Shown: positions 3,401 through 61,499 of the stretch, in pieces
Position numbering within the stretch: position 1 is the stretch's first letter
How the letters are laid out: each line of letters begins with the position of its first letter
Origin: Parachlorella kessleri
Lineage: Eukaryota; Chlorophyta; Trebouxiophyceae; Chlorellales; Chlorellaceae
Direction of reading: 5' to 3'
Assembly: GCA_001598975.1 (NCBI GenBank)
Contig: BBXU01002910.1
Location: 1 to 64,000, forward strand
DNA length: 64,000 nucleotides
Position numbers and translations under genes: made by a program
Notes under the pieces: model-generated
Told to the model about the DNA's origin: nothing
The model's input: only the letters and a program-made list of their open reading frames with translations
Database searches by the model: none

Positions 3401-5824
3401 ACGGTGCACTGCCGGGCCAGGAAGCAAGCGCATGAACGAGATTGTGGCAATTCGCACCAGGCGGCAGCTCTGTAGAGGCGGCACTGACCTGTGGGAAGAG
3501 CGGCGTTATGTATTCAAGGCTCAAGGCAGAGCAGTACATGACAGAGGTCATGAAGCGGAAGCGCTGCAGAGCAGGCACAGCAGGAACCTTATAAATGGAC
3601 GGCATTCAACATGTTCCCTTCTCCCCCAGCCCATAGAGATTCATACACCAGGTCCTTCCCCTTGAGCGGCAGCAGCAGCACCACCAGCAACGGGCAGGTG
3701 CATACTCAAGTAGACGTCAAGACAAGCAGTCATACCAATGCAGGTGCTCTCCCCGGGAAGTCTATGCAAGGGCACACCTTGCCAGGCAAAACCCCCATTC
3801 CACCCGACAGTTCGATCACGACGATTACAACTGACCTTCAGGTCCGAGTCGAATGACTCCCCAAACCTTGTGGCCACCGTCAGCCTGCCCAGCCGGCCCA
3901 GCCCGTCTTTCAACACCCAGTTGATGGCGGCCGCTGCATTCAGCGGGGGTGACAGAAACTCTAACTTCGACGCCTAACAGCCGCACATGCACGTGCAGGC
4001 ACCCATGTGCCAGTTGCCTCCCTGTCAGCTCGACCCTGGCAGGGAAGCAGGCCTTACAAGCAGCACCCACTGGCGAAATATCCTGTAGTCCCCACCAGCT
4101 TACCAGTCTGAAGCCCATGGCAACCCCCGGAGGCAAAGCACCATGCCTACTCCTCACATCAACATTTCACACTGGCCGCCAAGCAAGTAGACTTCAATCC
4201 AATTGCTATAGAGAAACAAGGACTTCCGGGCAGGCTGCTCTTGACACCCCGCCTTCAAGCCCAGCCGTCAAACTCAGCAGGTGACATAACATGCAGCTAA
4301 GCAGGACAGTCGCAAGCCCTGACCTGCAGGCAGGCTACGTTTGGCCCCCACACCCACAGCCCTCAGCAGGGACTGAGTGGCGAACACGCTGCTCATGCTG
4401 CTGAAGAACCGGTGCACCGCCTTCCAGCGCGCAAACTCCCAGTAGTCTGCCGGCACAGAGCAGAGGATCAACTCTGTCAGTCATCACTCGGTAACTTAAC
4501 AGTGGTGCACCTTCTTTCACAGCATAGACTTCCAGTAGCCGGGCAGCAGCCGCCCAGCAGCGACTAGTGTGCTTAGCAGCTTCAAACCGCTAATTGCGAC
4601 TGTGGCTAGCCATCTTGCGACCCTTGCCAGCCCTGGCCTCCAACCCAAGGGGTGCCTGCCAATGCAGGTTGACAAAGCAAACCCCGGAGGACATCGCCAA
4701 TCAGGCCAAGCAGAATGACTTTACTGTGCATAAAGTCGCCACCCTGCAAGGAAGCTAGCTACAGCTGTCACCAAAAAGGCGCAGCCCACCTGAGGTCACG
4801 CTGTGTGCCTCAGGAAAGAAGGCGTTCTGCAGGTCATGCACCATTCGCCGCACGTGGCCCTGCGCACGCACCAAGCACAGCGGCAAACCAGTCAGTATGG
4901 TGTCCAGGCCACTTTCCCGGATGGCTCCCCAGGGAAGTCAAGTAAACAACACTCCCCAGCTTCACTGTGCCAGGTGCTGTGGTCACTTATGTCCAGGCAT
5001 GGTGTACCATTGCACGCGACAACGGGTCACCATATGCACAGCTTCCATCCAACCTGCCCTTTGAATGCGCCCATCTCACAAGCAGAAAATATGTAACCAT
5101 ACTGGTCCACCAATGCCGCACACCCCATTCCCTACCCACCTGCACAGTTCGCCCATAGTCCTCCCCATGAGATAAGTCCTGCAAGTCCACAGCTCTTAGA
5201 CGTCCCTGTTTGGCGTCCCACACATACGGCTTTTTATGGGTGCCTGCATGCGCAATACACATCATTCATAGTCGAACTTCTGTCGGCGGAGTTTACGGAC
5301 AGCAGGCTGTCCTTGCAGTAGCCCATACTGGATAAGAGCCCTGCGACTGTGGGGCTGAGAGTCCTGCAACGTGCAGACTAAAGTGCAAAAGGGGCGACAC
5401 CTAGGCCTTGATAGTAGTGGCATGCCAGAGTCGCCGCTACACAGGATTCTAGCATAAAGTGCAAGAGGTGCTGCATTGACCGTTTGCAATGACAGTATTT
5501 GATAAAACCCAGGTTAGCCCATCCCCTCTGGTCACCTTCTATGAGCCCAACCGGGAGCGGCTCCAGCTGTTGCTCCTGAGCTGTTTTACCATCAGCCCTG
5601 CTACCCTTTTGCTCCTTTGCTAGCTGCACCTGGGAGCTGAGCGAGGCAAATAGCTGCTTGGGCACGTTGGGTGCCCTGGCCAGCCTGTTGCACTCTCCAG
5701 GGGACAGCAGCTGCTTAGGCCGCGAGCTATCACTTGTTTCAAGCCGGAAGTCTAGCTGAAACTCAACTCCGGCTGAAGCTGGGGGGGTTCCTGAGCGTGA
5801 AAAGTCGACTGGCAGGTTGCCCAT
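471..5824 (-). CDS. Root UVB sensitive (RUS/DUF647) family protein
   Basis: Thirteen exons (5824-5536, 5243-5140, 4859-4790, 4446-4324, 3933-3836, 3563-3489, 3202-3068, 2854-2709, 2415-2316, 2097-1970, 1743-1443, 1231-966, 612-471) total 1977 nt and give about 658 residues. RUS hallmarks appear in order: DYWEFARWKAVHRFFSSM, then ATQSLLRAVGVG, then NWVLKDGLGRLGRL followed by FDSDLK, then an ENLADISAKAQ segment, LPAWVLPVVAFPVLATGD, and RTLNKERAEIIAEHWLRMGE. The C-terminus ends with a GWQTSPFMLSSTERRGYVLLE stretch typical of plant members. Plant RUS proteins act in plastids in UV-B sensing, vitamin B6 homeostasis and auxin transport; the biochemical activity is not settled. Exon 11 codes a serine-rich loop from AGC repeats, likely disordered. 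The intron after exon 8 has a GC donor. The start at 5824 is the first ATG of the open frame. The specific RUS subgroup is not assigned. Confidence 0.9.
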
Positions 5825-18500: not shown

Positions 18501-19152
18501 TTGCCCGAGTTCTGTTGGCCTTGGAGTAGGAGGCTGGGTGCAGGGCTGCTCGTGCTTACTTTGCACTTGAGTTTGTGGAGCGGGAATGCGAGGTGATGGC
18601 CCTCACTCAGCGCAACAATTCCAGTCGCAGCCGCCCCTGCTATTGGCCTCAGGGTTTCCTTTGTGAGAAACTTTGCATGGCTCTGTTGTGCAGGTTTTGC
18701 TGCTGGCCTTGTACACCTACATGGCCTCGTGCCTGCTTATGGACTTCATAATGCCACCACTTGACAAAGCTAGACCTGTGGCCAGCACCACCTTTGGCAT
18801 GGAGGGACCCAGCCGCAGTGGGTTGGATCCAAGCAGCAGCCAAGCAAGCTTTGATGCTGCAAGCTCAGCAACGAGGAAGGAAGTTGCTTTGGAAGAGGAG
18901 GTGGAAGAGCAGCACGCCCCAGTGTTGCCTTGGTACGAGCGAGCCTACGTGTACTGCATAGTACTGGTGGAGCTGTACAGCTCACTGCTGCACCGGCTGC
19001 TGCTGAAAGACAAGCTGCCGTTCCTGCCACTAATACTCGTCAGTGTGTTCTGCGCCCTAGGCATGGTGTATGCCTGGGCGCGCATGGCGGCGCCATACCT
19101 GGGAAGCTGGGCCCCAAGCAACACCCGTCAGCGGCATAGGAAGCAGGTATGA
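15513..19152 (+). CDS. ALG8: ALG8 alpha-1,3-glucosyltransferase (ER N-glycan assembly)
   Basis: Ten exons (15513-15649, 15750-15855, 16042-16148, 16322-16428, 16692-16836, 16974-17076, 17355-17508, 17708-17882, 18193-18358, 18694-19152) total 1659 nt and 552 residues. ALG8 adds the second glucose to the dolichol-linked oligosaccharide in the ER membrane, from dolichyl-phosphate glucose. The GT-C signature [19 protein letters not shown] is followed by [16 protein letters not shown], and [16 protein letters not shown] matches the second conserved loop. Hydrophobic helices fill the rest, with [13 protein letters not shown] near the C-terminus as in ALG6/ALG8. HRHWLS and [12 protein letters not shown] favour ALG8 over ALG6. 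An in-frame stop at 15498 precedes the ATG, supporting this start. The last exon has an acidic, Ser-rich insert (residues ~425-480) before the final membrane segments. Confidence 0.93.
18418..18492 (+). repeat. Dispersed repeat copy C (inside ALG8 intron)
   Basis: This copy sits in the last ALG8 intron. It runs from GTATGGGTGGCAGGTAGTG through ACAGGGAGTGAGAGATG and GGACTGACAGGGCTGGATGC to AGAATG. It has the same orientation as copies A and B. Confidence 0.75.
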
Positions 19153-29797: not shown

Positions 29798-32105
29798 CTA
29801 CTCCCGAGCACTCACTTGCAGCTGCTGCCACACATTGAGAGCCGCGCGTGTCCGCCGCATCATGTCGCTTCCCTCGCTCAACCCCGCCTCCTCCACGCCC
29901 CGCTTTGTTCCCGTGAGCCCGCTGCCGCCCCTGATTGCCTGCCTGGGTGCTGCACCTGGGCCCGCTCCAAAAGTAGCCGGCGCAGCGCCATCAGCAGCCG
30001 CGGCCGCTATTGGCGCACGCCTCGCAGCAGTGGCGGATGCAGCCACAGGCGCTCCGCCTCCGGTAACGCCGCCAGAGCCGGATCCTGAGGCCCTGCCGCC
30101 ACTGCCGCCGTTACCACCGACCGCGGGCGCTGCCGATGGCTGCGCGCGGGGGCTTGCAGCTGCAGCTGCTGCTGCCTTGCCTGCCATGGCACGCAGGTTA
30201 CTCGCTGAGCCCACGTGGTAGAAAGGGGAGTTGACGGTCTCGGCGGGAACGTGCATGCCGGCAGCGGCGGCAGCTGCGGCGCCGGCGGCCACTATCACTT
30301 TGTCGGGTGGTAGCACCTGGAGCTGAGCGGCTAGGGCGTTCACCTGGGCCTCAGCACGGCGTACCATGTCACAAGTCACCTGCAGCAGCCATGGTTTATT
30401 GGAGCGCACACCGTAGCGAGGGGTGTGAGGGGCCCCAGACCGCAGTAACAAGAACTGACCATGCGCTGCACGTCAAACTGGTCACCGAAGAGTTCAGCTT
30501 GTACCTGCCAAAACCCTACTTAACAATGACCACTGGGGGCTCAACAGCAGCCAAATCATACAGTTTGCAATGAGAGACAGCAACACAAGAAAACACATAC
30601 CAAAATCCATGGAAAGGAAGCAAGCAAGATGAGCGCACCTCACACCAGTGGTCGAAAGTCGCAGGTGCAACTAAATAAGCACATACCTCTACTGAGCAGA
30701 AGGGCTGTGACAGGAGGTTCTCCAGGTGTGGCGCTCTTAATAGCAGCCCCGTACGCTTATGATGTTTCTTCAAAATCTGCATGCAGGCACGCAAAGCCAG
30801 TAAGGCCACTGTTGTACAGCGTGCGACAGCAGGCTTATCTAGCTGAATTGGCAATCCATCACCGTACCCGCGCCAGCGACTTGCTGCACAATCGTTGGAG
30901 CTTGGTAGAAGTGGTGCGCAGTGCCGCATGAGCTTCATAAAATACATATTCACCAGCACTCCTGATGAGCTGTCATTGCGCGTGGCAGCACCAGCCACCA
31001 CAATCTCCCCATGCTTGCTTGGGCTTTGGTTGCCATATTCCAGCCACCCTGACCACAACACCTCAAGGGATCGATTCCCCTTTCTGGAGCCCGGGCCCGA
31101 GGCTCAGCACAGGCATAGCGAAAGGGAGCGCACCTTAACCAGGCCTGTATACGCCAGGATGCTCCAATGCAGCAACAGGAGCAGTTCGCCATGGAAGTCC
31201 ACAAACGCCTTGTACGCCTCCTGCAGCTCCTCTGGCTTCGTTGCCCGGACAGCCTGCAGTAGGTTGGTCAATGAGGGCCATCATCACAGGATCAGTAGTG
31301 TGAGGTTGGCACCGCCTGATTGCGGGATCTTGGCTGCTACGATGCTGGGCCAGTGGAAGTGGCAAGGCAAGGCCTCGGAAGAGCGAGGTGGTTGGCGTTG
31401 GCTTTGCTCGGATAGAGCAAACATGCAGCCCCGGTCAGCTGGAGTGCTTGCTAAATGGTCCAGGCTCCTTGGCACAAGGCTAAAGCTAGCTGGCACGAAT
31501 GCTGCCTTGGCACTTTACAGGTTGTCAGACCTAACGAAAGCTAACATTGTCCAACGCAATAGCAACCCTCTGGCATCCTTGGGCTGAGCCACCCCCAGAA
31601 TTCCTGGCATGCACGATGCTCGTCGTCGCCAACCCACCTTCTCCTCCAGGGTTCCCAGCTTGATGACATTCAGCTCTTCTTTCTCAATATAGGAGTCATT
31701 CAGCTTCTGAACATCCTCGGTGATGGTCCGCATGAAGGCTTCCTCCTGCTCATCTAATTGCTGCTGCGCCTGCTGCGCATCATCATCCTCTTGCTGCTGC
31801 CGTTGTTGCTCCTCCTCATCTAACCGCTGCTGCTGTTGTGCCTCGTTCTCCTCCTCTTCTCGCTGCTGCTGCCACACACGTGAATCTCCAGGAGGTCCTC
31901 CCACAACTGCTGCACTCCCTGCCTCACCTTGCCCAACAACTGCAGCTGCAGCTGCTGCAGCTTCTGTTGGAAGTTGTGGCAAGTTTGCAAGTCCTTCACA
32001 GGCACCGTCTGCCGCATTAACCCCTGGGTGGAGTGCAGGCCCAACCACTGCGGCGGCTTTGTCAAGTGGTCCCTCATCGCCTACAGCCAGGTCACGCCCG
32101 TCCTC

Positions 32106-32161
<56 letters not shown>

Positions 32162-32644
32162 GTACGTCTGGCTGGCTGCTTGGCTGCGAGTCCTGGCTGG
32201 CCTGAGAGTCAAAGTCACCGCCCCTGTTTGGAATACGTTTCAGTGACTTCTTCAGCTGCTTGTCTGCAAGCAAAACAAAGCATTTTGTCGGCAACACTTT
32301 CATACACCTCACACTCGTGGGACTGCGTCCAGATAAGCGTGAATAAGAGTTTATCAGAGCAAAGGAGAAGCACCAGCCGCGTATAGACAGGCTCCCTCTG
32401 TTACTAAGGGTTCTTCTTGTGCCAAGAGGCAGGCACCTCCCTACAGCAAGACCTCATTGCATCAGAGCGGCGCAAGCGAGGTCAGCAGCAGCTTACCCAA
32501 GGATCAACTCGTTTCTACCAAGCCAGGAAGGCAACAACAGAATACCATCAAGAAGGCTGTACGAAGCGACTTACAAAGGGCAAAAAGGTCTGCAAGGTCT
32601 GGCAACTCTTCAGCAGAGTTTCGCAGAACCGAGGCAAACTTCAT
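29798..32644 (-). CDS. SPX-domain protein with polyglutamine insert
   Basis: Six exons (32644-32575, 32263-31638, 31253-31134, 30776-30687, 30504-30460, 30379-29798) join in frame to about 510 residues. The SPX domain, a sensor of inositol pyrophosphates in phosphate signalling, starts MKFASVLRNSAEELPDL, continues YKQLKKSLKRIPN, then EEAFMRTITEDVQKLNDSY, VDFHGELLLLLHWSILAYTG and LVKILKKHHKRTGLLLRAP. The lysine clusters YKQLKK and KILKKHHKR correspond to the phosphate-binding surface. Between the first helices and the long helix sits about 180 residues of disordered sequence, including about 18-19 consecutive glutamines and further Gln/Glu runs. After the domain comes an Ala/Gly-rich tail ending NVWQQLQVSARE. 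A GTGAGT at the QLQ codon could instead splice to more exons. No RING, EXS, MFS or VTC domain is seen. Confidence 0.85.
32106..32160. repeat. CTG/CAG trinucleotide tract coding polyGln
   Basis: An almost pure CTG run on the plus strand reads as CAG glutamine codons in exon 2 of the SPX gene. It is likely to vary in length between strains. Confidence 0.9.
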
Positions 32645-47046: not shown

Positions 47047-49936
47047 GCCGACGGCGAGCTTGAATATCTGCAGCAACGGAACAACTTGCCTTTTAGTAGA
47101 AACATAAGCTTGTCATAAGCAGAGGCAGCAAGTGACACGCCATGGCCAGCCAACTTCTGCAGGTCCTGGGCAGCAGCAGAAAAATTCATAAGGTCAGCAG
47201 CGTTGCTGCTCGAGGTGAGAGCTCGCCTGCATGGCTTGGGTTTGGGTGGCGGCGGGCCTACTCACGACACCTGATTACTACCACCCAGCTGTTCCAGCTC
47301 TATATCCCTCTCCTTGCAAGTGTCAATTTAGGCAGCAGCCAAGATGGAAGTTCGAAAGGAGTGAAGAAAGGTTGCAGTGAGGCAAGCCCAGAACGGTTCC
47401 TCACAAACTATGAAAGGTGGTACAAGATATGAATATGATAGTTGGATGAGAAGGAAGAGAAAGTGAAAGAATAGGATAGCCTCGAGGGTGGACGCTTTGT
47501 ACATACATGCTGGTGCAAGCGAGGGCTAGCCTGTCAGACGGGGCCTAACAACATTGTAGGTCAGCTTCCAGCGCATGGCTTCAACATGACTCAAGTTGTA
47601 TGCCAACCTCGGGATAGTAAAGACATGAAAGAAGGCATTGTGACCTGGTCGGGCCCCTCTGAAGGGGCAGACTCGTCTGACAGATTGGTTGGGGTGGGGC
47701 ATGGGGTGCGGCCGACATGCTACAGCCGCCACTATTGAGCGACCGTTCATGTCCCTCGCAGCTCTTGCTGGAGAGGCCGATGGCCTTTCAGCTGATGTTA
47801 CAGCACCCTAGCAGGGGGATGATGTCTTTCCAGAGCTGACAAACTTGGACACCGTCACAGGTCCCCAGCATACACATGCTGCTGCTGCTGCCATACCTGG
47901 CCTGCTACTGACGTACTGGTCAGAAGCTTTCGCCATCCAAGGCCAGACGCCTTGGACCCACAGGTCCACAGCATACAGTATGACCTCACAGGACTGTCAT
48001 CCCAATGGTAGAGCCGCATTGGTCCGCTACAGTTGTTCAAGGCATAGAGGACATCGGGCACAGCCAAGGATGCCGCGCAACGCGGGGCTGCCCTGCCTGC
48101 CAGGCCCCCAGGGAAAGCAAACAGGACTGCCAACAACAACGAACAATCTCTTCCCTTCTTATCAGTGTTGTCAGTCTGACGTACTTGCCGCCCTCCCAGC
48201 TGTCAGCCGCAGCGGCCCCAGCAGTGCTATATCGACATTCCGAGGGTGGCAGGAGCAGTATATCTTGCCAACGAAGCACCCCCAGCAGCGCGCTGCAGCG
48301 CCGCATCCAGGGTTCATTCAGCCCGGCTTGGGGTAGGCTGTTCCCAGCTCTATACATCATGTGCATGCAGCCCATGCCACCAGCTGCTTGTGCCAGCCGT
48401 CTCAATCATACTGTCTGCCCCTGCTGAAGCCAACACCCTGGTGCCTGATTCTGTCCGCCGCACGCTGCTCAGCATGTAGCGCAGACATGCCCACAGCGGC
48501 TGCTTTGGGAATAGAGTCTTTGGCTGCCGCATAGCTGCAGACGGTCCATCCCGGGAGGACAGGCGGGGAGGGGTCATCGGCCTTTAGCATCTATTTCAGC
48601 CTGCCCTGCTGTATCATCTCGCTGTAGCGGTGCAGTGCTGCTGCCTGGCCATATAGCTGCTTCGCATCAGTGTCGCCCCTTCACCAAATAGTGCCAACAC
48701 TGCCTCCTCCAAGGCTGCTGGTCGGTGTTGACGAATGCACAGTCAAGCCATTCCTCGACCTGGGGCCATCAGTTACCTGCAAACACTGGCCGATGTCCAC
48801 TATATTGCTTTGGACTGCAGATGTTTGGAAGGTTTCTGTATGGGCTGTGGTGCCTCATGCCGTGCAGCCTGCGGGCAAGGAACCTTGCTGAAGTGCTCCG
48901 ACAGCTCACAACTTGACCTGTGCAGACATCCTAGGCCAGGCCAGGGTGGCTACCGTTAAAACCAGCAGCCGCGCTTGAGGCGAAACCCTGACGAGACTGA
49001 GGAGGATGACTTGTAGCCCCGGTGGTACCCACTCTTCCACCAGCCCACATGTGTCCTGGGCTGGCCGCAGTCACTGAGCTGGCTCTTGCTACCATAAAGC
49101 GCATCCAACAAGCTACCACACACCAGACAAACCCTCCGTGGGGTCCACTGTGGGCTTCTTCACAGTTATTAGAATGTTGGATCGGGGTGTGCCCATGGGG
49201 TGTGCCTTTGTGATTGCCTTCCAGTGCACCGCGGGTGATGCCTTCCTGCTCGTCGGGCGCAAACCAGCGCACGGGCAAATGGTTAACGTTAGCGGCTGTC
49301 ATGTCTGCACTAGAGAAAGCAGGTCCACTCAACCCCATCCTCGCTATGAGCATCTCCCTTCACGAAACGTCAGATGAACAAACATATCCAATTAATTGAT
49401 AGACACTTCTTTTCAGAAAGAAGGTGAGGTGTGGTAGTGTTGCCAGGTTGGCAGCCACGCTGGCAGACTTAACCAGGAATCACCTCCCGGAAAGCAACAG
49501 ATATGCGTTTCATAAATAATCAGTAGAGATTAATGCAAGTTGGGCACCCAACGTTAGTTGTGTTACAGGGGACCTTGGATTGAAGTGGGAGTTGTTGCTT
49601 TCTAGGTCGAGAAAGGCATGCATGGCCTCAGAACTGCATGTCGTGGCCACTGCTGGCTAGGGCATGAGCGACAACCAGCCCACCAGCGCGGTCAGTTGTT
49701 TGCCTAGCTGGGCGGGCATATTGACTCGTCTTTCACTGGCTTCACACCTGTTCCTTGCTTGTCCTTGCAGTCCTATTGCTTCATTTGCTGCCGCGCACGC
49801 TGGGGACAAGGATCCCAGCCCGCCTGGCTAACCGGGCAACCTTGATCACAGTGAGTGGTTCTGCAAGGTTTGTGAGTGCCCCCATACTATTTGCAGGTGT
49901 GCAGGCCAGTGACAGTGGTGAAATGGGACATTGCAG
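47047..49936. other. Unresolved region between divergent genes
   Basis: This 2.9-kb stretch separates the expansin start from the CBM20 exon. It must contain the expansin promoter and the first exon(s) of the CBM20 gene. A minus-strand frame ending at 48591 reads DTDAKQLYGQAAALHRYSEM then IQQGRLK and stop, and looks coding, but I cannot connect it. A minus frame at about 48320-48180 (GLNEPWMRRCSALLGVLRWQ) is a weaker candidate. A plus frame at 49755-49855 (LLLHLLPRTLGTRIPARLAN) could be a leader exon. No transposase or reverse transcriptase motif was seen. Confidence 0.35.
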
Positions 49937-52900
49937 GTATGTGCCGCCGGCAAGCAGCACCAGCAGCAGGTTGCCAAGGGGCCACCCACAAAGCGTGCCA
50001 AGCAGTCCAAGCTGGTACGGGTTCGGTTCACCACTCGGCGAGAGGTGGCCTTTGGGCACAGCCACGTTTTAGTGGGGGATCACGCAGCCCTGGGCAAATG
50101 GAAGGTGAAGCGGGCGCTGGAGATGAAGTGGGGTGAGGGCCACCAGTGGGAGGCGGTTGCCAGGCTGCCACCTGGCCTGCGCCTGGAATTCAAGGTGAAG
50201 AGGCCAGCGACCTTCTTTACCAAGGCATCTTGTGCGAATTCGCTGTACACTGCCAAATTTTGGAAACGAGTGCTTGCTCTGCATGTATCGGAGCGGCAGG
50301 GCGTGGGTCACTTGCAGGACGGCACTCCTCCCTTCCTTGATCAGGTGTTGCTGATTTCTCGCTGCTTGGGCTTCAAGAATGCCTTCAAGGCAAGGTGCCC
50401 GGCTATTCCACTCCAACCAGACGTGACTTGGTTGTGTTTGAAACTCTCTCGGTCCTGCCACTCAGACGGTCTTCTGAATCTGCTGCTGCAGTGCGTCCAT
50501 GTCAGAGGTTTAAACAAGGTGGGCGGCACTCAGTGGGAGGAGGGCCCCAACCATGTCCTGGAGGTCCCGGCCAACGGCGTCAGCAGCATCAGCGCTGCCT
50601 TTGGCTGGGATTCTCCAGATATGGAGATCGTTTCCGAATATGAGGACCCAGTGGATGCAGCAGGAGTTGAGGCAGCCTCTCAGCAAGAGGAGGTGGAAGA
50701 TGATGAAGAAGAAGGAGAAGATGATGATAATGATCTTTCAACGGCAGTGAACATGAGGCAGCGGGTGGCAGACGAACCAGCTGCAGGAGACGATGAGCTG
50801 CAGCTGAGGGATGGGACAGAGATGGACACCTTGGATTTAGGCGAAGCAGATGATCTGGTAGAGGTGGAAGCAGGTCAGCAGCCTCTGAGTTGGACGTGTG
50901 GTCGTTCTTGCGACTCAGGGGTGCCACTGGGAGGTTTCTCTATGTTATTTAGGTGACAGCAGACCTGCAGTTGGGCTTCTCAGACGTGGTGCATCTTCAC
51001 CAAACATGTGCGAGTCAGAATCGCACTTGGAGCAGGGTGTCTTGGCGTCAGACGGAGCTTTGCATGGTGAGCTTGGCTTGTTTATGCGTCCCTCTAAACG
51101 AGCATTGTGGGTGATGTACAGATGCCCATACAGCTGCCACCTCTGGAGCTGCTGATGGCGGCATTGCACATGCATTTGACACTGCTGGCAAGCAACAGGT
51201 GAGCGTTGGTTCATAGGTAGGTTACATCCCGGGCTGCAAGAGGCAAGGCAGGTTAAGCAACCTACTAGAAAGCAGTGGGGCTTCTTGTGACCTGTCAAGT
51301 TGGGAAGTATCAACCTCTCAGTGCGCTGCAGCTGTCTGTTAGCTATGTCTTTCTGTGACGCACTATCACAGCCGCTTTTTAGATTTGTCGTGACTCGCAG
51401 GATCAGGCTGATGCAGCTGAAGAGGCGCTTGCAGTGAAATTTGTGTCAATGGGCAAGAAGAAGAAGGGCGAATCCGAGCAGCAGGCTGGCACGAAGGTTG
51501 GTCATATGAACTATTGAGCATTGGATTCTCATATTTCGGGCAGGAACGTGTTATGCCACCATACTTTTGTAGGAATCACCAGCAAAGCCCAGCCTGCATG
51601 CCATTGAAAATGCAAATTACCTGCCCGGTGTCCTTGAGGACCGGCAAAGCTGATGCGATGCCAACATCTTCTAATGTAGTGGGCTACATTAAGAGAGTAG
51701 TATGCCTCCTCTGCGATGTAGTATGCCTCCTCTGCGATGGGTCCCTGTGCACTTGCAAGGCCGCGCGTTTGTATACCCGTCAGTTTGTGTTAGCCATTGC
51801 TAGCTTCACATTTGCTTTTCCTGAGTTATTCACCAGTCACTTTGCAGGGGCCGCTCCTTAACGCCGTGGCACGTGAAAACCAACTCCTCAAGCGTGCTTT
51901 GGCCGCTGAGGAGCAGCTGTCGGCAGCACAGCAAGCACTGCGAGCAGAGCGAGACCTGGTTGGCAAGCTGAAGCGGGAAGCACAGTCGGCGGCAGCCACT
52001 GCAGTTGAGGTAAGTTCCCCGGTTAAGGTGTGTAATTTACCCAATCTTGCGCTGAACCAACGTTGCAGATGTAGCTTTAGTCCAGGCAGTCGGGACGGCT
52101 GGGCAGCTCCCTGACATAATTCCAGTGTTCATAAAATGCAATTTCCCTGTTCCGCTCCTGTAACTTGAAGCTTGGCAGAAAGCTATGGAGAAACTGCGCA
52201 AGTGGCTGCCTCACACTTGCCAAGCTCTATCACTTTCATCCCCACTCTTATGCCATGGGGACTCTGACGAGGCCGGGATATATGCGTCTTTCAGGGGACT
52301 CCTCATGTCGAAATTTCTTCTTCGTCCCACCCTGCCTGCAGGAGAACCTGGAGCAGGCCTTGAAGCAGGCGGCTGCTCGGGAGAAGGCTCTGGCAGAGCG
52401 TGCTCAGCGGGCTGAGCTGGCATTGTCACAGGCGCAGGCGCAGCTCAAGGCCGACCAAGAGCGACTGGCCCACGTATTGAAGGAGGCAGAGGCTGCTGCA
52501 GGATGGCAGGAGCGGCTGGTGGGTTGTGTGGTCTGTGCAGCTTGTTGAGAGGGCGTGACTGGCAGCTGGAATCTTCAAAGGTACGTAGCGCAGGAGCAGC
52601 GGCTGGGCCATGTCGTTCCTGCTGAGCAGTAAAGTGAAACTGCGTGCTGATGCTGATGGGCGACAGTTCATGGACAACAGGGAATGACTGCTGCTAGCGG
52701 ACCCTGATGCTCCTGCAGGCTGAGTTGGAGCGGGCTCTGGAAGGAGCAGCCGAGCAGGAAGCTGCGCTGCAGGAGCGAGTGGAAGCAGCAGAGCAGCAGC
52801 TGGCAGCGACGCAAGAAGCCCTCGCTGCTGAGCAGGCATCTGTGGCCAAACTCAAGCTGGAGGGTGCGGCAGCGCTCGCAGCCTCGGTGCAGCGACAGGT

Positions 52901-55900
52901 GAGACCGGTGTCTGGTGATTTTGGTGGAACAGGCGATGCGCATGATGAGGCGGCCATGTTGGCTAGAGCAGCAGGTAGCCTGGCTGCTGTGAGCTGCTAG
53001 TAAGACCCAGCGAAGAAGGATATCAACACCATTACTTTCTTGGCCTGCAGGCTGACTTGGAACAGCAATACCAGGCTGCTGTCAGCCGCGAGCGCGGCCT
53101 AGCTGAGCGCGCCGCGGCAGCAGAGGGTCAGGCCAGGGCGCTGCAGGAGCAACTGACCAGGGAGCAGGGCTTGGTGACGAAGCTGCGGGAGGAGGCCTCG
53201 GCGGTGGTGGCTTCAGCACTCAAGCAGGTGGGCAGGATGTTGCCGCTGAGTTGGCCGTGAGGAAGCGCTAGTGCGCATGCAGGATTTGTGGTGATTGGGT
53301 GCCATGGCGACGCTGGTTGAGTACTGCGTGCTGGAGCAGTGCCCTGGCAACACGGTATAGACACGATATACGGTTTGGGCAAGCCGGGCTGGGAAGCAGT
53401 GTACCTGTGGCGTGACCCCGGTTGCGGTTTGCACAGCTTGACTTTTCACTGTTTTGAGGACCTCTGCAGCTTATCGTTCAACTGAAGGCTAGCTGAGAGA
53501 GAGCTAGTCAAGTCCCTGGAGGAGCTGCATTATAGTCAATGCAAGTGCCCCGGCAAGCTCAACGCAGCCTCCCATGTTGCAGGTGGAGCTTGTTCGGGAG
53601 TATGAGGAAGCCGTGATCCGTGAGAACACCCTGCTGGAGCGCGCTGCGGGCGCTGAGGAGTCGCTGGCTGCTTTGCGTGCTGAGCTGGCCAAGGAGCGCG
53701 AGCGCAATGCAGCAGAGGCGGAGCGGGCGCAGGCAGATGCAGCCGCAGCAGCTTCCAGGCGCCAGGTAGCTGGAATGGGGCCATTGCGTTTGCGCTGAAT
53801 CATACGAGGGGGCATGCATGTGGTACGCACAGCTTGCTCTTGTGCGTGCTCCAATGAAGTGTTGCTATTCATATGGTGTCAGATGATTGTGACATCTCCT
53901 GGTAGGTCCCTGCTAGGTTTTGCCGTAGCGCTTACTTGCACGGATACTGTGCATGGAGAGTTTAACAAGGGGCGACATGCAAAACAGTGTACAAGCGTTA
54001 TGCGTGAAGGTGGAGCTGGAGCGCGCCTATGCTGATGTATTGGATCGTGAACGCGCCCTTCTACGCCGTGCTGAGGACGCTGAGAACCAGCTGGCAGTCG
54101 TAGAGGCGTCACAGCGTGAGCAGCAGGCGCTGGTGCAAAGGGTGCAGGACCAGGCCAGGACAGCATTGCAGGGGATGCAACGGCTGGTGAGTTGAGAGGA
54201 ACGGAGATGTTTGCAGGTGCTGAGACGGAGTGGGCGGTTCTTTGAGGTAGAGCTATAGGTATAGCTCTGCAGCAGGTGCTTGGCTTGGTGGTAGGGAAGG
54301 CAGTATGGCGGCCACTCATTCGATTTTTTGTGAAGATAATGGCACTTCCCTTGTGTGCCTGCTTAGCGTCTCTGTCAGACGCCATCAGCAGGTATGATTT
54401 GCAGTGCTTGTCATAATCATGGCATGTAGTTGCGCTGAACAGGAGGTTTGGTGACGGAGCTTGAGCTTGGCAACAGCAGGGGAGCAAACCCTGCAGCAGC
54501 AACACACAAGCTATGCTTGACAATGCGGAAGTGTTACCCTGGGGCTGCCACTTCCTTGGGCGTTCCAGGGAGCTCTGGGGTGCCAGGCCCAGGGTGCACA
54601 CGCTGCATCAGTTGTAGAGCACACCATTCGTGTTGTGGGACCATTGGAGTTGCACAGGGAACCACTTCACGGAAGCTAAAAGGCCAAGGCGGGGAGCACT
54701 ACAGCATCAGCAGCAAACTCGAAGGCGTTCTTTATAACGTAGGAGTGCTGACCAGAGCTGCCCTTGTGCTTGCTCAGGAGGAGTTGGAGCGGGAGCTGAG
54801 GGAGTCCAGGGGCAGGGAGCGGACGCTGCTTCAGCGGGCACAGCAGGCAGAGCGTGCGCTGACGGAAGCACAGCACGCGCTATCCTCACAACAGGCAGGG
54901 CTGAAGCTCGAAGGCACCCACCGGCAGGTGAGCAGAGGATGACTTAATGTAGATGGCTCGTTTTGTGAAGGGAAGTCAGGCGGGTGTGCAGCGAGAGTTG
55001 AGAAGTATGCTATTGCGATGCATTCCAGCGCAGCTCGCATGATGTGGGTGTGTTGGTATTGTGCGCTGTCATTGCCATGTGGAGATGCTCGAGGGGTGTT
55101 TAGGTGGCAGGTGCGTCAGCCAGGTACTGCTGGTGGCCCCTTAGCCCAGCCACATTGAGATCATGGAAGCCTTGCACTGGTTATGTCGAAACAACTCTGG
55201 CACACTTAAGAGGCAAGCGTGTATTCCAAAGCCGCGCAGTACAAGCTAGGTGATCGTTGCTTACTGAGCACCAGGCTCCCCATTCTGGTGCCTCCACTAT
55301 GGTTTCCATTACCACCAGTGGAGGCGACCGGTTCCCTGCAGAAAGCAGTCGCCCGGCAGGCATTACTGACCCTGCCAAGGCCTGCAGCATAGTTCCCCCA
55401 GGCGTGTGTGGTTGCCAAGACGTTTCGCCAAGTTTGACATGGTTGCTCACATGTGGCAGGAGGAGCTGGAGAGGGCCTTGCAAGAGGCATCCGCCCGAGA
55501 GGCGTCCCTGCAGGAGCGCGCGCAGTCGGCCGAACAGCTGCTCGCACAGGTGCAGCAGACGCTGCAGCAGGAGCAGGACTTGGTCGAGAGGGTTCGCCAG
55601 GAGGCAGCGGCTGCCGTGACAGCAGCCAGGGCGCTAGCAGGGGCGGCGACGATGGTCAGCCCTGAGCTGGAGGACAGTCTCATAGGCGGCCTCAGCAGCA
55701 GCAGCAGCGATGGGGACGGGGCTGGGAATGGGCTGGAGCAGCTTGAACGGTCCGAGGAGAAGGCAGATGTTGGGCTGGAGGTGAGCCCCGCAGGCTGTGG
55801 CATATCATGGTTGTCATACACAAGGCACGTGTTTTGTGAGGAGGCAAGGGGGGAGGGGTTAAGCGGCAGCTGCTGGGATGGGGGAGGCGGCTGGCATGGG

Positions 55901-58900
55901 CTGGATAGAATGTAGCAGGTGAGCCTGGCAGCGATATGGTTGTCAGTTCTATTCGTGCGCCGCAGCGTGCACAAAAATGGGCCGTGATCTTGAAACTCTT
56001 GTCGGGAACAGCGTGGGTGATGTTGTGGTGTTGAGCATGTCTCTTCACTGCAGCAGGTGAGGAATGACATGTGGCCACGCATGAGCTTTTATAGAAGGGG
56101 TGGGGGGGTGTTGGGGGGGCTTTTGCAGCATTAGGATCATTTCCAAGTGCCGGGTGCGGATGATTTCCTGTGCAGGACGCTGCTCAGGGCATAAGCAAGT
56201 CCTGCTGGTGTGACTCAGCTTTGGTTACGGGTCACATTTATGATGGTCATGCCCATATGCCTCTGCAGGACTCTGCTGCCTTTGAGAAGCAGGTACGAGA
56301 GGCAGTAGCCCGTGAGGAGAGTTTGCTCGCACGTGCCCAGGCAGCAGAGCAGCAGCTGCTGGATGCAGAGCGGGCGCTGCAGCGGGAGCAGGACCTGGTG
56401 GCGCGGTTGCGGCAGGAGGCGGAGGCGGCGGTAGCGCGGGCACAGCAGCAGGTGTGCAATTGTCTGGGCTAGGTGCACCTCTAGGCTGTATCGGACGAAT
56501 CAACCTGGGCCATAGCGTCTTATGCTGAGGGCTCAGCAGACACTGTTAGGATATGTAACAGCTATCTAATCAACAGTTGCCATGAACAGCCTAAGGAAAG
56601 GGATATGTATGTTGCTCCAGTCCGCCACCTGGGACCCCGCCCACCTACCTTAGAAAGCGGCTTCTGACACATGGTGTTCATCCCTGACCTGCAGGTCGAG
56701 CAGGACCGCCGCCAGCGCGAGTCCGCATCTCGTGAAGCCGACCTCATAGCCCGCGCCGAGGCCGCTGAGGAAGCCCTGTCCAATGTACACCGCTCACAGC
56801 AGGCAGCGCAGCGCGAGCTGCTGGCCCGCGCTGAGGCCGCCGAGGGACAGCTGGCAGCAGTGCGGGAGGCGCTTGAGCGGGACCAGGATGTGCTGGAGCG
56901 GGTGCTGGAGGCAGAGCGGCAGCTGGCGTTGGCCGAGCAAGTGGAGGGGGTTGCCGATGCTGGGCGTGGTGCCAAGGAGACTGGGGTTGTGGGCGACCTA
57001 GCCGACGGCGGCAGGAGCGAAGCGGTGGAGAACCGGCTGTGGCGGCGGCACCTGGAGCGCATGCTAGACGAGGTACGAGGTTAACGCACTGGAGGCGGGC
57101 TTAAAAGGGTGGGGCTGTTGGGGCTGGGGCTTCTCGTCAGCCCCCTGATCTGCTAAGGAGGATGAGTAGTTTATGTGCCAGCTGTTTTGCGTTGAGGTCC
57201 AGGTGCCTGCTAGTCTGGTGTGGATATGGGGTAAGATGTTGAGGCAGTATTGTTCACCGTTTCCTATGTGTTGTGTGGCACCTTGATTGTTGTCGCTTCC
57301 TGATAGCCAAGACCGGACAATACATCCATGATATTGACAAGAGCGCCACCCACCTACCTCAGCTGTATTAGGCGACTCGGTTGTCCGAGTTATCAGCAGG
57401 TATCACTGGGCGGTTGGCACTCTGTCAGAACCTTGAACGTAAGAACCACCACACTGCTTGCCCTTTCCTGCAGGCCAACTCTCAACTGGATGCCGAGCGA
57501 ACCAAGGTGCAGCGCCTCCGCTCAGAAGCCCAGCGTACCAAAGCGCAGCTCCTTAAAGCGGTAGACTCCTCCTCGGCGCTGGCGCAGGCCAACTTGGCGC
57601 TGAACAGCAAGGTGAGTGCGTGCTGTCGCAGCATGAAGTGAGTTGGAATTGGATGAATTATCATGCTGAGTAGGAAGGTTGAGAACCTGCTGTGCTAGCC
57701 CGGATGCAGCGCCCTGGGACGGTTGGTGGGTAGCCGTTGACCGCACTTGCAGCACAGAAGAAGAAGAAAAAGAAGGCGCCTTTTGAGTGTAGCATTTGCT
57801 ATCATTTAGGCATGCAAGCATCTGGTCTGATCCATTCATCAAGCAACCCTACACAGCAAGCAGTGGCCTTTACCGTAATACCCACTTAGAGCATGTTCGG
57901 GGAGGTGTGCACCAGACCCTTCGTCCTGCAAGGCAGAGGAATGTCGAGGGCTTTGGCGGCAGCCTGGCGTAAAGCGGAGTCCTTAGCCTTGCTACCACAC
58001 CTTGGCAGGAAGGTCAGTCATTACTTGCCCCTCCAAGCATGCTATTCGTCACTTCCCAGGTTCACACATGACTTCTCATCTGACATAGGTGGAGGAGGAG
58101 AGACGGCGGGCCAAGGACCTGGAGGCTGCCTCAGCCAGCCTGGCAAGGGAGCTGGAAGATGCAAAGCAGGCAGTACAAAGGGAGCGCATTGCGTTTGAAA
58201 AGGTCGGGCTTGGAAGGGGACATGCAGTGTTGTGTTCCTAAGGCTGCTGCTCAAAACGAGCAATACATCCACCTGTCAGCTCTGTTTGGGGCCGTTTTTT
58301 GGACCTGCCACCCAGCTGCAAACCAAGCTGGGCGCACTCCCAGTGCTGCAGTCCTTGCTTGGCTTTCTATTGGCCTCTTCAGAAGCCCGTATGACCGGAG
58401 GCTCGCCGTACAGTCAACCATGGTATGTGTGCTAGACCTGCCACGGCCCCGCCCAAGCTTTATGCCTGTCATAGTGCAGGCGGTACGCATGCGGGAGGCA
58501 GTACAGCGTGAGGCTGCCCAGCAGCGCGCCAAAGCCGAGGCTCACTATCTACAGGAGCGCAGGCGCAACGACCAGCTGGAGGTGATTTGGGCGCCTGGGA
58601 CCCTGTTGTGCGTCTCTCATCTACAGGGGCACGAAGTGTCCCCAGGGTTCAGGCAGCGTATCTAGATGGGCCTCATCACTCAGGCTTGGGTTGCGGGCAT
58701 GCCGTCGTCTGCCTTGCAGCCCTTGAAGGATCGATGCCTGCTGGTTAGGACACAGCTTGTGGGGCTGTCGGCGATCATGGAACACCCCCCAGTGTGGTGA
58801 GCGCAGCTGTGGTGCTCCGGATGCTCGCTTGCTATTTCATAAAGAAAGGAGCCTGGCTGTGCTAATGGATCGTGCATCACTCGCTGTGCAGCGTGAGCTG

Positions 58901-58987
58901 CGGAGCTGGGTGGAGGCGGTGGGTGGACGGCTCATGGGTGAGGCAGGGGTTAGTGCCAATGGCAATGGCCAGCCGACCCGGTGGTGA
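49937..58987 (+). CDS. CBM20 starch-binding, long coiled-coil protein (SAGA1-like)
   Basis: Exons 49937-50194, 50492-50873, 51122-51198, 51401-51496, 51848-52009, 52342-52518, 52719-52898, 53051-53227, 53583-53765, 54010-54186, 54778-54927, 55460-55780, 56269-56451, 56695-57072, 57474-57611, 58089-58202, 58480-58581 and 58892-58987 join in frame to about 1,115 residues. The N-terminal CBM20 reads VRVRFTTRREVAFGHSHVLV, GDHAALGKWKVKRALEM, HQWEAVARLPPGLRLEFK, then TQWEEGPNHVLEVP. An acidic linker (EEVEDDEEEGEDDDND) follows, then repeated coiled-coil units such as ELERALEGAAEQEAALQERV and ELERALQEASAREASLQERA. In Chlamydomonas, SAGA1 and SAGA2 have this architecture and link the pyrenoid starch sheath to Rubisco. 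The assignment rests on architecture, not alignment. The 5' leader exon was not found, and a GTGAGTG at 58984 could extend the 3' end. Confidence 0.85.
51848..56451 (+). repeat. Phase-0 exon repeats coding ~60-residue coiled-coil units
   Basis: Exons of 162, 177, 180, 177, 183, 177, 150, 321 and 183 nt each begin and end at codon borders. Most code one unit of the form (E/D)LE.x.A..RE..L.ERA..AE..L...Q..L..E..LV..L..EA, lying between a CTGCAG-type acceptor and a GTG/GTA donor. The 321-nt exon has a unit plus a Ser/Gly-rich acidic tail. Further, more diverged units occur at 56695-58581. Confidence 0.85.
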
Positions 58988-60117
58988 GTGTTGCTGCCTG
59001 GTGAGGACTATGGTGGAAGGCTACGCCCATGTTCAGGTGTAGACGGGAAAGGAACGTGCTACAGCAGTGGTGACGGACTTGAAAGGGGTGTTGGTAGCAG
59101 TGAGCACCCAGCTGGGGGAGACAATGTACAGATGAGAAGCGCGGGATGGAAAGGTCGGGAGTTGGGATTTAGTGGGACCTGTCGAAACTGTCGATATTGC
59201 TATCTAAGAGCCACCTCGTATGTTTTGGATGGAGCATATTATCATCTTCGAGGCTGCAGGGAAAGAGGCACAGAGAGAGAGGTTCAGCAGAAGGGTTTCA
59301 TTATTCCAGCATTGGCAAGGAATGGCCCTGGTACGGTCAACCCTCGGTAGTGGTGCCAGGATCCCAGCTAACTTGTAGTGAGCGCAGGCTCACCTCTGCT
59401 CTCTCGGTATGTTTGTAGGCCAGGGTTGGCTGTTAGTGGCAGGCAATGTGAACTGAAGAGATGAAAGGGTGATTGTTGTGACAGGGCTGATGCAGCCTTT
59501 GATGCACTCTCTTGTCACCCTTGCACAGCAGAAAGGATTTTGTTCGTAGTAGGAAGTGGACACTGGTATGTATGTTGATTGTAGGGTACTGGACAGCTCC
59601 TCTTGTTCAGTGGCTTTTTATGCTGCCAATTTTGGAAAATGGTATATATATTGTCATTTGCCATTCTTGTCGTTGCGGGTTGTACTGTCGCATGCTGCAC
59701 TCAAAGTTCCACACAAAAATGAAGCTGATGACCCTATGGGATTACTTAGTGTCCTAAATGCGTGGGCGGCAGCAGAACAGAGCCTAACCTACCATACATC
59801 CCAATGCAGATGCGAGCGATAAGTACTACCCAGTATCAGACACAAAAGCATTCCGTCAGAGCATGGGTACAGAATGCAGCAAATGTAGATAAGGAGTTCC
59901 AAAACTGCGGGGAGTATCATACCCCTAACAGCAGGTAAAATAATGTCTTGCAGAAAAAACAGGTCAACATTGCACCCAGACTGTCACTTTCTGCAAAAGG
60001 AAGCAACCGGTGCCGCCAAGCATTGTCTCAACCAGCCTAACTAAAACCTGGATGAATATGTAAATAAGAACGCAAACAATTAAAAGTTAAAAGTCTGTAC
60101 TATGTATGGGATTGGGT
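58988..60117. other. Convergent intergenic region
   Basis: This lies between the CBM20 protein stop and the CPBP protease stop. A possible additional exon at about 59261-59330 (plus, ERGTEREVQQKGFIIPALAR) would require splicing at 58984. The right end, from 59820, is A-rich and likely 3' untranslated sequence. No other gene is seen. Confidence 0.4.
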
Positions 60118-61295
60118 TCACAGGAGCCTATTGATCATCCAGCACCGTAGGTTCCACATCGCATGGAGGAGAACAGGAGCCACCAAACTCCCAGTGTACA
60201 TGTATGCAATGGCACACAGCAAGGCCAGCAAGGTCAGAGGATACAACTCATCAAGCTCTAGCTGCCAACGCTTGAAATCCTTAAAGGGTAGGTGCTGAAG
60301 CGCAAACGCTGCTGAGCTCACCGCCACAGCAACCCAACAGGGGAGCAGCTTTGCCAGGGTGGGAAGCAAGAACCCCCTAAAGATCAGTTCCTCATACAGA
60401 GGGCACAGAAGCACGGTTGTCACCACCTGAGCCCACTCCCTTCGGAGGGACCTCACTGCCAGGGAGGCTACACTCATCAACTGGCCCAGCAGGAGCCTCT
60501 GCTTTGCCAACCAGCCAGCAATGCCAGCATCACTGGCAAGGCTGATGCTCCCTTTGGCGCTGTCCCAAGCTCCACCCACCGCATGCACGGCAACGCCCCG
60601 GGTGCCTTGCTGACTCTGGTGCTGCCCTGCAGCAGCCGCGGCAGCCATCATGCCAGCACGCACGTTGGCAGGGAAGGTGGCTGCACCCAGCAGCACCAAG
60701 GGCAACCCCAGTGCGGCAAGGCTGAGGTGTGCGGGGAACACCTGCGCCAGCCCCACACCACTCCCCCCTGCCTGGAACCATCCCAACGTGCTGCCTAAGA
60801 GCCCTGCTGTAAAGGCAGTAACCAGGCTGTTCAATGCCAGGTGCCCAGTCCAGCTGAGGCAGCTGTCCCTGGCACCCAACACTCCTCTCAGGGGCGAGTG
60901 CTTCCACATGGCCAGCACGACGACAGCTGCTGTGAGGGCATAGTACCCTAGCAGCCAGGCAGGGTAGACGGCTAGTGATGGCCAACCCCAGGGAACAGCT
61001 GGAAGCTGCGGCTGCAGGGCCAGCAGGAGGGAAGGCGCTGCTCCCAAGGCCTGTACCTGTAACTGATCGCCTGCCATTCCCGTAAGGCTCTCAAAGGCAC
61101 TGCTACCGCCGCCACTGCTGCTGCTGCTGGGAATCTTGTGAAGGGAGGAGTAAGACACGGTGGATGGGTGCCTAGCAGGCTGATCAGTATGCTGAGAAGT
61201 ATGCTGGGACAGATTGACGGCTGCACCGCCTCTAAAGCAGCTGCCCTGCCTGGCTTGTACCTTTGCTGCTCGGAAAGGGTCGCTGTGAAGCAAGC
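60118..61295 (-). CDS. CPBP-family (CAAX/ABI) membrane protease, 5' exon missing
   Basis: One long exon ends at 60118 and codes about 392 residues. The CPBP (Abi) glutamic intramembrane protease signature EELIFRGFLLPTLAKLL lies about 90 residues from the end, followed by SSAAFALQHLPFKDFKRW and the last helices LVAPVLLHAMWNLRCW. The catalytic Glu pair, the Arg of FRG, the His of FALQH and the H..WN motif are all present. About eight hydrophobic segments are visible. Related algal and plant members are plastid or ER membrane proteins; some remove prenyl-protein tails, but the substrate here is unknown. The open frame extends to 61356 without an ATG, and a GTCCCGCAG acceptor lies at 61296-61298, so a first exon upstream is expected. 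The next ATG in frame is at 61077, which would lose a possible transit peptide. Confidence 0.82.
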
Positions 61296-61499
61296 CTGCG
61301 GGACAGACACCCAGTTTCAGAGACGTGAAGACGTGAATAAACACTTCCGATTGCAAGGGCTATTTAAAGCAGAGCAGTAGTTGACCTTTCCCAGGGCCTT
61401 AAGGGGGTCTCGGGGTACCCTGCAAGACTCAGCAAACTTTAATCATAAACCTGTGACAGGCATGCCGATAGAAGCATCCAGACTGCTCACCTATCCGCC

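Follow-up and report, generated by a model that had tools for sequence, protein, structure and literature searches.

We predict with high confidence that a gene on the forward strand of a Parachlorella kessleri contig (BBXU01002910.1) encodes a non-catalytic starch-binding scaffold, one that is probably targeted to the plastid. The stretch analyzed, called the window here, comprises the first 64,000 nucleotides of this contig. As read by hand and checked with a script, the gene spans positions 49618-58987 and has 21 exons encoding 1205 codons and a stop. The protein has one CBM20 domain, an acidic linker, and a long coiled-coil rod. In the mechanism we propose, the N-terminal CBM20 would hold starch or malto-oligosaccharides, the linker would provide slack, and the coiled coil would dimerize and space the glucan-binding ends from a partner of the distal rod or tail, at a distance of up to about 120 nm if the rod is a single straight helix. 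Such a scaffold would place or shape starch at a fixed chloroplast site, most likely the pyrenoid surface, a proposal to which we give about an even chance. Any contact with Rubisco would be made through a motif other than the one used in Chlamydomonas. The combination of a CBM20 with a coiled coil is of a known kind, and the exon-duplicated rod and the lineage set this protein apart as a variant. Literature searches, which excluded most subscription papers, turned up no description of a protein like this from Chlorella-type algae.

A CBM20 head and a rod of duplicated exons

Residues 78-168 match CBM20 (Pfam PF00686) with 59.8 bits, against a cut-off of 23.3, and an E-value of 2.4e-16. Exon 3 (49937-50194) encodes the N-terminal two thirds of the domain, and exon 4 (50492-50873) encodes the C-terminal third together with the linker, in which Asp and Glu make up 38% of residues 178-270. 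Both the N-terminal CBM20 and the acidic linker had been proposed in an earlier note on this DNA, and both are confirmed. CBM_20 was the only match in a Pfam scan of the joined protein at E <= 0.001, with no catalytic domain and no CBM48. Aligned to what we take to be the CBM20 sequence of Aspergillus glucoamylase, and with the glucan-binding roles that we assume for its residues, the domain retains the Trp, Lys, Trp, and Asn of glucan-binding site 1 (in LGKW, EFK, QWE, and PN). Asp and Glu represent 1% of residues 1-75 and Lys and Arg represent 17%, and from this composition we judge that the N-terminus is probably a plastid transit peptide. Searches of a protein database with residues 52-380 and 76-178 gave no matches of any kind, a weak negative given that the algal coverage of the database is unchecked.

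The rod spans residues 361-1174 (814 residues) and is mostly helical. It is encoded by 13 exons (exons 8-20, 51848-58581), in agreement with the earlier claim of more than ten coiled-coil exons, and contains 2 prolines and 29 glycines. Hydrophobic power at a period of 3.5 was 2.69 for the whole rod, whereas 200 shuffles averaged 1.04 and never exceeded 1.45; for exons 8-17 it was 2.86, compared to a shuffle maximum of 1.53. For exons 18-20 alone (118 residues), the value of 2.26 was below the shuffle maximum of 2.99. These three exons (57474-57611, 58089-58202, and 58480-58581, all phase 0) encode the distal coiled coil. Exon 17 (56695-57072) encodes a repeat-like coiled coil, a break, and a short helix; AlphaFold2, given its single sequence, predicted helices at residues 2-96 and 102-125, with a mean predicted local distance difference test score of 90.4 and a predicted template modeling score of 0.53.

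Each of exons 8-16 opens with one repeat unit, mostly of 59-61 residues (54 in exon 8 and 50 in exon 14). Exons 8-11 lie at 51848-52009, 52342-52518, 52719-52898, and 53051-53227, and exons 12-16 at 53583-53765, 54010-54186, 54778-54927, 55460-55780, and 56269-56451. Exon 15 has a longer tail of Ser, Gly, and acidic residues, and exon 17 has a longer form of the unit. When exons 8-17 were compared over their first 60 residues, the mean pair score was 79.3; shuffled units scored 35.5 +/- 1.0, and shuffling within heptad classes gave 38.5 +/- 1.0. As controls, the same rod cut into successive slices of 60 residues, at six offsets, scored 60-66, and slices of the coiled coil of another gene in this genome, on contig C628, scored 51.6 among themselves and 38.8 against the window units. 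Because the unit score exceeds both the shuffles and the slice controls, the units are exon-bound repeats and do not merely reflect coiled-coil composition, and their likeness beyond heptad-preserving shuffles indicates that the rod grew by exon duplication. Pairwise identity among exons 8-16 averaged 0.40 (range 0.27-0.53), and differences were 0.59 at third codon positions, compared to 0.43 at first and 0.42 at second positions. The introns between the repeat exons had no shared similarity (blastn, E 1e-3). Taken together, the identities of 27-53%, the excess of third-position differences, and the dissimilar introns indicate that the duplications are old and that coding constraint has acted on the exons. 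When the genome (50.9 Mb in 1642 contigs, including the window) was searched with 518 residues from the CBM20 to exon 11, rod-exon matches were found only in the window gene itself.

One alternative is that two adjoining genes, one for a CBM20 protein and the other for a separate coiled-coil protein, were merged in our model, which was built from the genomic sequence alone with borders chosen by eye before the scripted check. Exons 5-7, which lead from the linker into the rod (50953-51066, 51122-51198, and 51401-51496), are short, and a rough automatic exon chaining split exons 4 and 5 differently. On the other hand, the end of the CBM20 and the linker share exon 4, and exons 5-7 have end phases (1, 0, and 0) that fit exons 4 and 8. 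All 20 introns are GT-AG and 55-591 bases long, their phases are compatible, and the frame is open with no in-frame stops, although the borders were picked to fit. Exons 6-13 and 15-20 were recovered by the chaining with borders identical to the manual model, although its splice scores were trained on that model and it serves as a rough guide only. A paralogue on contig C1125 also has a CBM20 followed by helix-like exons. We consider it likely that the CBM20 and coiled-coil exons form one gene, and a merger of two genes is improbable.

Relation to SAGA1, SAGA2, and BSG1

The earlier note presented this gene as the counterpart of Chlamydomonas SAGA1. What stands of this proposal is a domain order like that of the SAGA proteins and BSG1, the lack of a catalytic domain, and the presence in this genome of RbcS genes and an LCIB family. 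Descent from a common SAGA ancestor fares poorly, given the duplicated-exon rod, a single chance-level motif, Rubisco docking residues that are mostly absent, and the statement in PMC13167743 that neither SAGA1 and SAGA2 nor their Rubisco motif is found outside the Volvocales.

SAGA1, SAGA2, and BSG1 all carry CBM20 domains and are described as acting on pyrenoid starch in Chlamydomonas (PMC13167743, PMC6374437). SAGA1 and SAGA2 are reported to act redundantly in starch sheath placement, and their CBM20s to bind starch and maltoheptaose (PMC13167743, 2026). Likened by domain order to these descriptions, the window protein shares with SAGA1 and SAGA2 a CBM20 and a long coiled-coil-like region. 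It has one CBM20, unlike SAGA2, which has two, and it differs from both in its run of duplicated phase-0 exons and in having no supported Rubisco-binding motif, of which several copies would be expected.

A true orthologue of SAGA1 or SAGA2 would tether starch to Rubisco via the W[+]xxPsi[-] motif, for which we assumed the exact form W[RK]xx[LIVAMF][DE]. Domain order agrees with orthology, as does one match to the pattern, W1046-R-R-H-L-E, in the short helix of exon 17. At least one match, however, occurs in 4.4% of shuffles of residues 177-1205, and we rejected W1046 as a Rubisco motif for its single copy, its chance of 0.044, and the unsuitable small subunits. Docking residues were checked in four of the five RbcS matches in the genome (L009-L012), using a residue numbering, and D23 and E24 as contact residues, that we presume to be correct. 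Position 87 (M in Chlamydomonas) is S, S, G, and G in the four genes, position 94 (V in Chlamydomonas) is N, S, Q, and D, position 23 (D expected) is N, N, G, and A, and position 24 (E expected) is D, D, D, and P, whereas L90 is L in all four. A Rubisco with the changes M87D and V94D is a mutant used in PMC9825591. With a single chance-level motif and docking residues mostly absent, a Chlamydomonas binding mode is unlikely here, and we regard SAGA orthology as very improbable.

The motif result also weighs against placement of this protein at the pyrenoid, for which the Chlamydomonas-type Rubisco site amounts to one chance-level match. Further points on that side come from a search for a coding pattern like the EFLERK of CsLinker, which had 0 matches in the genome DNA compared to 3 in a reversed control, and from the C628 gene, which in a rough model joins a CBM20 to a long coiled coil and could hold the pyrenoid-tether role instead. 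CsLinker, from Chlorella sorokiniana, is described as a linker that binds the Rubisco large subunit and that evolved independently in a trebouxiophyte; unlike the window rod, it is disordered with short helices (PMC11570498).

The main rival to a pyrenoid role is a general stromal scaffold for granule initiation or size control, like PTST2 and MFP1 or like BSG1, that would bring glucans to starch synthase without a tie to the pyrenoid or Rubisco. BSG1 (Cre02.g091750) is described as having 792 amino acids, with a transit peptide of 50 residues, a CBM20 at 72-150, and a coiled coil at 302-380, and its loss as making starch granules abnormal in size and morphology (PMC6374437). By this description, the window protein is like BSG1 in its presumed transit peptide, single N-terminal CBM20 (at 78-168), linker, and coiled coil. 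This nearly identical layout of the head, together with the effect of BSG1 loss, is what makes granule shaping without Rubisco the main rival, and no Rubisco-binding element was found in the window protein. The window protein differs in its length of 1205 residues and in a rod of 814 residues, which far exceeds the 79-residue coiled coil of BSG1. Moreover, BSG1 is itself reported in the pyrenoid proteome (PMC6374437), so the two readings overlap. In land plants, PTST2, with a CBM and a coiled coil, and the coiled-coil protein MFP1 are described as positioning granules (PMC13167743, PMC6374437). PTST proteins carry CBM48, unlike the CBM20 of the window protein, and MFP1 has no CBM. A stromal scaffold of this kind is possible, and we hold it to be the less probable course.

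The protein could also assist in starch degradation by bringing enzymes to granules. The solved CBM20s nearest in sequence are those of cyclodextrin glucanotransferases and glucoamylases, a ranking that says little since no scaffold-type CBM20 is among the 29 solved sequences matched. The authors of the BSG1 study suggested that BSG1 helps target enzymes that degrade pyrenoid starch (PMC6374437). The window protein has no catalytic Pfam domain, and we consider a role in degradation very unlikely.

Other genes in the assembly bear on the lineage of this alga and on whether it concentrates CO2. One RbcS exon scored 90.4 bits against the C. sorokiniana entry 8q04 and 83.6 against 1gk8, presumably the Chlamydomonas protein; rbcL had no matches in the assembly. 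A PsaD exon scored 152.5 bits against 6zzx and 130.9 against 6ijj, which we take to be from Chlorella ohadii and Chlamydomonas, respectively, among the best 60 of 82 matches; the top entry among these 60 was 9vfj, whose score sums three stretches. PsaD thus looks Chlorella-like. The LCIB_C_CA family is expanded, with 18 exon matches on seven contigs (C194, C1486, C269, C328, C250, C362, and C1574). The RbcS genes and the expanded LCIB family make it likely that this alga has a CO2-concentrating mechanism.

A convergent tether of pyrenoid starch, which the earlier note offered as its fallback, is, in our view, a better form of the SAGA idea than orthology. We tentatively suggest, as a possibility short of an even chance, that a trebouxiophyte pyrenoid starch tether evolved independently of SAGA1, from a CBM20 of a local five-member subfamily and a rod that arose as one phase-0 exon was duplicated repeatedly, and that it docks on Rubisco or on a local linker via an undescribed motif. 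The SAGA authors speculated that algae of other lineages rely on CBM-bearing proteins of similar structure, each with a Rubisco-binding motif of its own (PMC13167743), and such a protein would be a convergent functional homologue of that kind. If this role is confirmed, coiled-coil starch tethers arose on two occasions, in this alga through the duplication of exons.

CBM20 relatives elsewhere in the genome

Counting the window gene, CBM20 is matched by 22 exons, which lie on 19 contigs of the genome. Over the matched part, the closest relative of the window CBM20 is C1125:8836 (59% identity over 61 residues), followed by C1126 (54%) and by C345 and a second C1125 gene (52% each). In all four, the match ends at EFK followed by a GT codon, as in exon 3 of the window gene, which suggests that these paralogues share the intron position. 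No long coiled coil was shown in rough models of the four, the second C1125 gene being cut by the contig end. Further relatives include C679 (45% over 51 residues) and C678 (47% over 58 residues).

The two C1125 genes (L013 and L014, G000:C1125:5000-17643), both counted above among the four close relatives, lie in tandem. In C1125:8836, the exons that follow the CBM20 are helix-like but shorter and contain a KSVVSG-type motif more than once, and the first gene of the pair has three copies of the motif ELxGLVxAMMxKSVVSG..KKRLLDK. Considered as a possible linker motif, it had five matches in the genome at E <= 10, of which three are on C1125 and the other two on C746.

The C628 gene (L028, G000:C628:3000-12900) has its CBM20 at 3328-3504, with 30% identity to the window CBM20 over 46 residues. 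Its rough model has CBM_20 at an E-value of 3e-13 followed by a long coiled coil, and the C1152 gene (L029) resembles it in a rough model. By an ad hoc threshold, coiled-coil windows lie near the CBM20 at 7 of 19 loci; at two of these (L016 and L019), the windows may not belong to the same gene as the CBM20 exon. With 22 CBM20 matches, four close relatives, and a second coiled-coil CBM20 gene, a single local SAGA counterpart cannot be named, contrary to the earlier note.

On contig C362 (L026, G000:C362:10000-19900), LCIB exons at about 369-2614 share a strand with CBM20 exons that begin at 2858 and lie directly upstream of them. The two are joined in frame by a good donor, AGAG/GTATGT (2615), and a good acceptor, CTGCTGCAG (2858), and the open frame of the CBM20 has no Met before the domain. 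The joined pieces match LCIB_C_CA at 6.3e-41 and CBM_20 at 1e-13, with LCIB borders chosen by eye and an LCIB start that falls beyond the part of the locus that was read. Judged by its splice signals, this locus appears to fuse an LCIB-type carbonic anhydrase in frame to a CBM20; alternatively, the CBM20 gene may have a short first exon of its own. Titles and abstract openings of 10 of 12 papers matched in the literature on LCIB with CBM20 included none on such a fusion. A starch-binding arm on a carbonic anhydrase would suit a barrier to CO2 at the starch sheath. For starch placement around pyrenoids outside Chlamydomonas, the window gene, the C628 and C1152 genes, and the apparent LCIB-CBM20 gene form a short list of candidates, which may lead to the Rubisco-binding motif that the Chlorella-type lineage uses itself.

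Gene model and neighboring genes

Exons 1, 2, and 21 are the least certain parts of the model. Position 49937, the gene start in the earlier note, is the internal acceptor of exon 3, which is probably preceded by two 5' exons. Exon 1 (49618-49690), placed by eye in phase with exon 2, would encode the start Met and the first part of the transit-peptide-like N-terminus. Exon 2 (49771-49850), with AG and GT borders and phases of 1 in and 0 out, would encode the rest of the Arg- and Ala-rich N-terminus and ends before VCAA. Upstream of the CBM20, the model has a Met only in these two exons, the next Met being inside the domain, and both exons are tentative since their basis is splice signals and phase.

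Exons 8-21 are phase 0 at both ends. Exon 21 (58892-58987), also tentative, encodes a C-terminal tail that ends in QPTRW and a stop, and its coding score is -0.11 including the stop codon. This stop overlaps a good donor-like GTGAGT (score 9.6) that the exon-chaining script used to continue beyond 58987, so the C-terminus may be longer than modeled. The same script lengthened exon 14 and added many spurious-looking micro-exons, for a total of 38 pieces. Two of the pieces in the chain remain candidate exons outside the model. The first, 57905-58012, fits in phase 0; its donor is good, but its acceptor is poor (1.7) and its coding score is near zero (0.03). It would add 36 residues, including W-R-K, with no match to the Rubisco motif. 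The second, 58720-58743, is in phase and 24 bases long, and its borders are middling (6.6 and 5.6).

A candidate polyadenylation signal, TGTAA, which we take to be the green-algal form, lies at 60059-60063 on the forward strand and is the only copy on that strand between the stop and the coding frame of the next gene. It may be a chance match, since introns 8 and 16 contain three further copies. The next gene downstream is convergent (60118-61359, reverse strand) and encodes a CAAX-type, Rce1-like protease (E-value of 6.8e-21). Farther upstream in the window are a fragment of an SPX domain with a long glutamine run (31515-32453, reverse strand, 2e-7) and an open frame (18667-19152, forward strand) that matches the ALG6/ALG8 glycosyltransferase family at its C-terminal end (5.4e-7).

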